Source: an uncultured Flavobacteriaceae bacterium (GTDB lineage Bacteria > Bacteroidota > Bacteroidia > Flavobacteriales > Flavobacteriaceae). Taken from it: DNA of 64,000 nt. The notes beneath the pieces were generated by a model that saw only the letters and a list, made by a program, of their open reading frames with translations, was not told where the DNA came from and ran no database searches. Shown here piece after piece: positions 3,930 through 51,160 of the stretch (within the stretch, counting starts at the first letter, position 1; every line of letters starts with the position of its first letter). The DNA is taken from positions 1 through 64,000 of the forward strand of contig CANMSB010000019.1 of the NCBI GenBank assembly GCA_947500445.1. The letters are read 5' to 3'. A program made the position numbers and the translations under genes.

Positions 3930-4584
3930 ATGAAGCGGTCATCCATAGTACTGGCGTTCTTGGGTATTTTGCTCTGTACCTCCTGTTATTCCTATAAGCT
4001 ATATCCTAAAAAGTATTGGCACTATACCAATCAGCGGGTAAGGCAGAACGCTTACGTGCGTAACGATAGCTTGAAGAAAGCGCTTAAAATACTGGAAGCC
4101 TCGGAACTATTCGTAATAGTGACGGACAGCAGTTCCGCCGATTTGCACATTACCCTATATCCCTTGAAGCAAAATGTTGCCTGCGCTACTCCGATGCTGC
4201 CGACAATGCTCACCTTGGGCCAAATGCCGGTAGTTGTTCCGGAAAAGTATTACTTTCGGTTCGATGAGACCGTTAACGACAGTACGGTAATACCATTTTA
4301 ACTTTGAAATGGCGCGTATAGAAATTGAATTATTTTTTAGTGGTTCAAGGCAAAAAATAGAAGCATAGCCTTAGCTACGGTTATATTTTTTAACGAAGAA
4401 CAGCTGAAAAAGAAACGATTTATTAGTGCTATTTCAAAGTTAAAATGGTATGGGACGAAATTTTTCACTTAACATTTCGCGAAGGGTATGGTTTTGGGAC
4501 TTGTTTACATTTTCCAAGCGCTTCAACAAAAAGGCAGGGAAAGCGGTCTTGGGAGCATACCGATCCAGTAGCGCAACGCCCTAA
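3930..4584 (+). pseudogene. Small lipoprotein gene interrupted by a palindromic element
   Basis: The intact frame from ATG 3930 codes for a lipoprotein: a signal peptide ending in LLCTSC (cysteine 19), then about 100 residues with YKLYPKKYWHY near the start. It stops at TAA 4299-4301, which lies inside the inserted element. Beyond the element, from 4453, another 43 codons are open to TAA 4582-4584 and read GRNFSLNISRRVWFWDLF then TFSKRFNKKAGKAVLGAY, which looks like genuine protein. Removing 160 bp (4291-4450) or 163 bp joins the two parts in frame, giving about 164 residues. I infer that the truncated 123-residue product is what is made now. The function of the family is unknown to me. Confidence 0.72.
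4290..4451. repeat. Palindromic repeat element, copy A (full-length)
   Basis: The first 21 bases (from ATACCATTTTAACTTTG) are the exact reverse complement of the last 21. Between them lies about 120 bp with a central imperfect hairpin, GCATAGCCTTAGCTACGG. There is no open reading frame inside. It resembles a MITE- or REP-like non-autonomous element. The same ends and the same central motif recur in the copy at 24153-24323. The insertion lies inside the lipoprotein gene and supplies its present stop codon. Confidence 0.8.
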
Positions 4585-24152: not shown

Positions 24153-24323
24153 ATACCATTTCTGGTGTTCTACCATTTTAACTTACGCAAATAAAAACCA
24201 GGGATTTTTTGGGTAGGCGAAAAAGAAAATCCAAGCATAGCAGTAGCTATGGTTAGCTTTTATTTTGAAGCATACACGAAAAAGAACAATTTTTAATGGG
24301 TAATTTAACATTAGAAATGGTAT
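24153..24323. repeat. Palindromic repeat element, copy B
   Basis: The outer ends ATACCATTTCT (24153-24163) and AGAAATGGTAT (24313-24323) are exact inverted repeats, and TGTT extends the pairing. Inside, TACCATTTTAACTT (24171-24184) matches the left end of copy A. The core GCATAGCAGTAGCTATGG forms a 6-bp perfect stem (CATAGC/GCTATG), and GAAAAAGAA follows as in copy A. The rest of the 394-bp gap before exbD holds a hairpin ACGGTAC/GTACCGT (24406-24426) and no gene. Confidence 0.75.
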
Positions 24324-25568: not shown

Positions 25569-25594
25569 ATACCATTTCAAAGTTAAAATGGTAT
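25569..25594. repeat. Short palindrome of the element family (solo form 1)
   Basis: 26 bp with a 9-bp stem ATACCATTT / AAATGGTAT around CAAAGTTA. Its last 21 bases are identical to the right end of element A. It lies between convergent genes and may act as a transcription terminator for either. Confidence 0.75.
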
Positions 25595-29296: not shown

Positions 29297-29322
29297 ATAC
29301 CATTTTTGCTTTGAAATGGTAT
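29297..29322. repeat. Short palindrome of the element family (solo form 2)
   Basis: ATACCATTT / AAATGGTAT with an 8-nt loop; 24 of 26 bases agree with the reverse complement of the copy at 25569. Its last base is the first base of the stop codon of the next minus-strand gene (29322). Confidence 0.72.
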
Positions 29323-51135: not shown

Positions 51136-51160
51136 TACCATTTCAAAGTCAAAATGATAT
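51135..51160. repeat. Short palindrome of the element family (solo form 4)
   Basis: ATACCATTTCAAAGTC then AAAATGATAT: 24 of 26 bases agree with the copy at 25569. The right arm has one change that weakens the stem (GATAT for GGTAT). It begins at the last base of the DUF5916 stop codon. Confidence 0.65.

Follow-up and report, generated by a model that had tools for sequence, protein, structure and literature searches.

An Interrupted Lipoprotein Gene

In the window, that is, the whole stretch of 64,000 nucleotides analyzed from an uncultured Flavobacteriaceae bacterium, a 160-bp palindromic element lies within a lipoprotein gene and splits it into two parts (Table 1). The open reading frame starting at 3930 encodes 123 residues and ends on a TAA inside the element (ORF 3930–4301), and a second frame, downstream, stays open from 4453 through 43 codons to the stop at 4582–4584. 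Excision of either 160 or 163 bp restores a single frame, whereas excision of 162 bp does not. When 163 bp are excised (the element together with a 3-bp target duplication), the resulting protein of 163 residues aligns without gaps across the junction with three uninterrupted orthologs, whereas the 160-bp excision leaves one extra residue. The first-pass annotation had described a lipoprotein frame broken inside a palindromic element, followed by 43 codons of convincing protein and rejoined by a deletion of 160 or 163 bp; each of these points is borne out, and the gap-free alignment sharpens the last of them to 163 bp. The element inserted downstream of codon 120 in this small flavobacterial lipoprotein gene, and its terminal repeat supplies the stop, so that the product lacks a conserved C-terminal part of ~40 residues and has probably lost its function.

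Table 1. Features of the Window Considered in This Work
Feature	Position	Strand	Remarks
Lipoprotein gene, first part	3930..4290	+	120 codons + one base
Left target 3-mer	4288..4290		TAA; assigned by family rule
Palindromic element, very probable MITE	4291..4450	+	160 bp, TACC...GGTA
Left terminal inverted repeat	4291..4310	+	TACCATTTTAACTTTGAAAT
Premature stop	4299..4301	+	TAA, from terminal repeat
AAATGG	4307..4312	+	direct repeat of right end, proposed slippage site; from sequence
Right terminal inverted repeat	4431..4450	-	
Right target 3-mer	4451..4453		TGG, unlike TAA
Lipoprotein gene, second part	4453..4584	+	43 codons + stop
169-bp element	24154..24322		similar ends, TTA/TTA duplication; putative relation to family
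24-bp solo unit	25570..25593		TTA/TTA duplication
24-bp solo unit	29298..29321		TTA/TTA duplication
24-bp solo unit	51136..51159		flanks TAA/TGG

The 160-residue ortholog from genome G034, searched against 397 genomes of the family, gave matches in seven: G034, G154, and G352, which represent three other genera, have uninterrupted genes; the genome of the window has two separate pieces; G015 has an ortholog in two pieces; and G083 and G161 have weak partial matches. The first piece of the window gene is identical to the G034 ortholog at 50 of 120 positions and the second at 20 of 39, and all three intact genes, the uninterrupted orthologs for which a search had been proposed, continue into the sequence that follows the element. 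One could argue that the two frames were never one gene, with the 123-residue lipoprotein being ancestral and the downstream frame open by chance, and the 123-residue ORF does indeed read as a lipoprotein by itself. However, both halves match one ortholog, in order and adjoining, and the three intact orthologs, rather than ending with the 123-residue product, extend past the element junction, which refutes this reading; we give it practically no credence.

None of the other nine genomes of the genus yielded the gene (E value of 0.001), so that the comparison is one between genera and the genus offers no empty site for the window locus. Pfam gave no family match for either piece or for the two orthologs scanned, and a pattern search for orthologs in genome contigs matched 249 stretches, none of which was confirmed. 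We note that G015, from another genus, has an ortholog that is likewise broken close to this C-terminal region (L013:797–1860), with an IS200-like Y1 transposase ORF (L013:919–1392) between the two pieces. Judging from this arrangement, the G015 split appears to be an independent insertion into the same lipoprotein gene.

The Element Family and Its Target Duplication

The 21-bp end of the element has 248 matches across the genome with at most two mismatches (117 forward, 131 reverse), and its reversed control has none. The fetched loci yielded 44 distinct full copies, of which four were dropped, two as diverged (L014_1168 and L071_5730) and two that span two neighboring ends (L019_933 and L046_934), leaving 40 for analysis. 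The copies have sharp ends in common, formed by terminal inverted repeats (TACCATTT...AAATGGTA), and are 160 bp (24 copies), 161 bp (4), 182 bp (1), 183 bp (10), or 184 bp (1) long, with the long form carrying a 23-bp insert that contains a small C+G-rich palindrome. A similar 23-bp insert is found in the opposite arm and orientation at L037:1002–1184, as if the interior had been inverted there, and a shortened copy of ~70 bp in L019 keeps part of the right arm. At three loci (L014:1005–1325, L017:1005–1192, and L019:933–1163), elements or units directly adjoin each other with one TTA or TAA in common. A different repeat of ~170 bp lies at L071:9361–9546 (contig 1, ~349361–349546), with several copies in the same genome and matches in G002, G003, and G007.

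Identical 3-mers flank 28 of the 40 analyzed copies (TTA in 16 and TAA in 12), compared to a mean of 14.6 and a maximum of 25 among 20,000 shuffles, none of which was as high. With all 44 copies included, 28 have identical 3-mers, and these are 28 of the 30 with TWA on both sides; none of the dropped four has identical 3-mers, and two of these have TWA trimers that disagree (L019_933, TTA/TAA; L071_5730, TAA/TTA). Because the flanking 3-mers are identical in this many copies, the TWA duplication, not the element, accounts for the palindrome's outermost A/T pair: the element proper is the 160-bp TACC...GGTA sequence, and the 162-bp palindrome is an effect of target duplication. The presence of this 3-bp duplication also means that the family has moved, and we are confident, short of certainty, that the element is a non-autonomous MITE that inserts at TWA.

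The mobility of the family, as claimed in the first-pass annotation, thus stands, whereas the accompanying claim of a recent insertion at the window locus calls for more caution. The insertion may well be recent, given the undecayed second half of the gene and the identity of up to 96% between the window copy and its sister copies (40 scored of 233 candidates), but the flanking 3-mers of this copy, as of 11 others among the 40, differ. In the window, TAA and TGG differ at two of three bases, yet the reading frame of the gene's second half is preserved; either the duplication was already imperfect when it formed, or the site has mutated since.

Of 42 full copies, three pass an open-frame test (those in the window, L027, and L036), and the family therefore looks mainly intergenic, with gene interruption uncommon; the homolog test of interruption covers the window copy only. 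At L027:804–1404, a full element with a TTA/TTA duplication is flanked by two membrane-protein-like halves, putatively of one split gene. With respect to their neighbors, 16 of the 40 copies are codirectional in sense and seven in antisense orientation, seven lie between convergent and seven between divergent genes, and three lack one or both neighbors; the codirectional-sense excess is no more than a hint.

Fold, Composition, and Conservation of the Hairpin

The inverted arms of the window copy (4290–4320 and 4421–4451) are 87% complementary. The + strand RNA has a predicted folding energy of -62.4 kcal mol–1 (z -9.4, with none of 200 shuffles as stable), and the other strand one of -44.0 (z -8.2). 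The element has a G+C content of 29%, compared to 45% in the window, and its longest open stretch is 37 codons, with no transposase gene. Rfam gave no match above the gathering score, with three weak matches to microRNA models far below threshold, and the window contains only two tRNAs.

To examine the fold across copies, 18 chosen sequences were aligned, comprising nine of the 40 copies from the genome of the window, one from G002, three from Aquimarina muelleri, and five from one MAG. In this alignment, 95.3% of cells pair, falling to 42–55% when the partner is slid by 1–3 columns, and two-sided changes occur in 14 of 45 pairs, compared to a shuffle mean of 6.6 (0 of 500 as high). This supports, rather than proves, that the hairpin is kept by paired changes in related Flavobacteriaceae, as the alignment itself supplied the structure and its sequences are related. 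The paired changes may be due to matching ends or to a hairpin, in either DNA or RNA. Derived wobble pairs number 29 distinct kinds against 15 A.C for the predicted pairs, and 30 against 15 for the palindrome pairs, an excess that is only suggestive of selection on one strand.

Twenty stretches of genome contigs, including Aquimarina and two Flavobacteriaceae MAGs, contain the exact 20-bp end; several of these are single ends that may have arisen by chance. Among eight paired copies outside the genome of the window, three have identical TWA 3-mers (TTA/TTA or TAA/TAA; L076, L077, and L089) and five do not, with two of these five having shifted ends. TTA followed by the end with one mismatch is found in two of 149 family genomes, and some match is found in five of the 10 genomes of the genus, the genome of the window being included in both counts; G002 has two near-complete elements. 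The element ends had no matches in viral contigs (exact pattern), or in plasmids or phages (blastn).

Solo Units of 24 bp

In 400 kb of contig 1, there are 14 units of 24 bp, compared to four full elements and one of 114 bp, and the window adds a further three (17 in total). The sequence of a solo unit is that of a single element end, with GGTA closing it. None of the 17 falls within a called ORF of at least 70 residues (such ORFs make up 88% of the stretch), and in the open-frame test three have 40 or more open codons to either side. Across the genome, 39 sites (control 0) fit a pattern that requires TWA at both flanks and tolerates one mismatch, most of them known from the pattern match alone. 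Identical 3-mers flank 25 of the 39, and at sites with TWA on both sides, for which the pattern itself selects, 25 of 29 agree, compared to a shuffle mean of 16.5 (p = 0.0007). The shortened copy in L019 has one of these 39 sites (C25:14656, TTA/TTA) as its left end. At the solo unit at position 354894 of contig 1, four alignments to relatives in the genus (including L106, L108, and L109) cross the site without the unit, at ~70% identity.

The solo units look like collapsed full copies. The foot of the hairpin carries short direct repeats (AAATGG... and the terminal AAATGGTA); slippage from one to the other would delete the sequence between them, leaving a 24-bp scar with the target duplication intact. 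AAATGG is present at positions 17–22 in 13 of 40 full copies, and the terminus AAATGGTA in 27 of 40; the slippage step itself is seen at no single locus. The opposite direction is also conceivable, with the 24-bp solo as the basic mobile unit and the 160-bp element as a composite of two inverted units, and both the uniform length of the solos with their 3-bp duplications and the three of 40 full copies that begin with the complete 24-mer fit such an origin. We nevertheless consider it unlikely, as the interior is conserved from genus to genus and varies little in length, the ~70-bp copy in L019 retains part of the right arm, and a 24-bp element offers little room for two binding sites. A fuller version, in which the 24-bp palindromic unit itself transposes into TWA with a 3-bp duplication and the two-unit composite carries an RNA hairpin under selection, seems to us marginally less likely again; if true, however, the unit would be among the smallest known transposable units. 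The family also provides a natural test of long-palindrome collapse, with full 160-bp copies and uniform 24-bp units in one genome. We note also that an insertion of 160 + 3 bp shifts the reading frame, whereas 24 + 3 bp preserves it.

The Putative Transposase

Some IS5-type transposases make 3-bp duplications, and eukaryotic PIF/Harbinger elements prefer TWA. The MITE would be moved in trans by a transposase, probably of DDE type, that cuts TWA with a 3-bp stagger. Pfam searches of the genome gave five DDE_Tnp_1, one DDE_Tnp_1_2, and five Y1_Tnp matches, none of which lies between element-type repeats in the flanks inspected; at L099:36, there is a left-end-like sequence with five mismatches and no right partner. 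Among distant end pairs, no transposase was recognized by eye in the ORFs of eight long pairs, and partial searches (three Pfam families, end pairing, viral contigs, plasmids, and phages) found no autonomous parent with the same ends. Twenty very small contigs of the genome (G000 contigs C158–C177; L117–L136) consist entirely of N.

The five Y1 matches also raise the possibility that the element is a palindrome of REPIN type, mobilized via single-strand hairpins by a Y1 (RAYT/IS200-type) transposase. Y1 elements are not known to make a target duplication, and the fixed 3-bp duplication in this family therefore argues against such a mechanism. In addition, in the loci read, no end-like sequence with fewer than six mismatches adjoins any of the five Y1 matches, and no Y1 gene flanked by the same repeats was found. 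Thus, even though two inverted end units in a hairpin, together with the solos, parallel the REPIN doublets and singlets in the published description (PMC3116915), we regard movement by a Y1 enzyme as highly improbable, and retain the DDE-type transposase as the preferred candidate.

Comparison with Known Systems

No description of the present repeat was found in the literature searched, which does not prove its absence. REPINs (PMC3116915) likewise combine an inverted pair of end units in a hairpin with paired changes and single-unit remnants, and their authors considered that singlets could arise through deletion between two units; the present family differs in its 3-bp target duplication and in that no linked Y1 gene was found. 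A 3-bp target duplication is likewise made by eukaryotic PIF/Harbinger elements and their MITEs (PMC2213677), but the host kingdom and end sequences differ.

Bacterial MITEs are, together with REPINs for the doublet/singlet pattern, the nearest relatives in kind. As described in two accounts (PMC2229807, PMC10969869), Correia/NEMIS, RUP, and other such elements have in common with the present family a length of ~100–200 bp, A+T-rich composition, terminal repeats, target duplication, a long stem-loop, a mostly intergenic location, and many copies. RUP uses TA targets, compared to the 3-bp TWA duplication here, a distinction drawn from descriptions rather than sequences, and for the present family no parent IS was found. 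Within the Bacteroidota, two reports (PMC9769881, PMC4596501) likewise describe MITEs, namely MITECca01 of Cardinium, which is IS982-derived, and BrickBuilt/MITE293 of P. gingivalis, which has IS5-type ends; compared by description only, these have ends that match named IS elements, whereas no such match was found for the ends of the present family. At the window locus, a small bacterial MITE has cleanly interrupted a gene that has intact orthologs elsewhere; its ends are exact and its 3-bp target is defined. The family is new, but it belongs to a known kind of element, the bacterial MITE.
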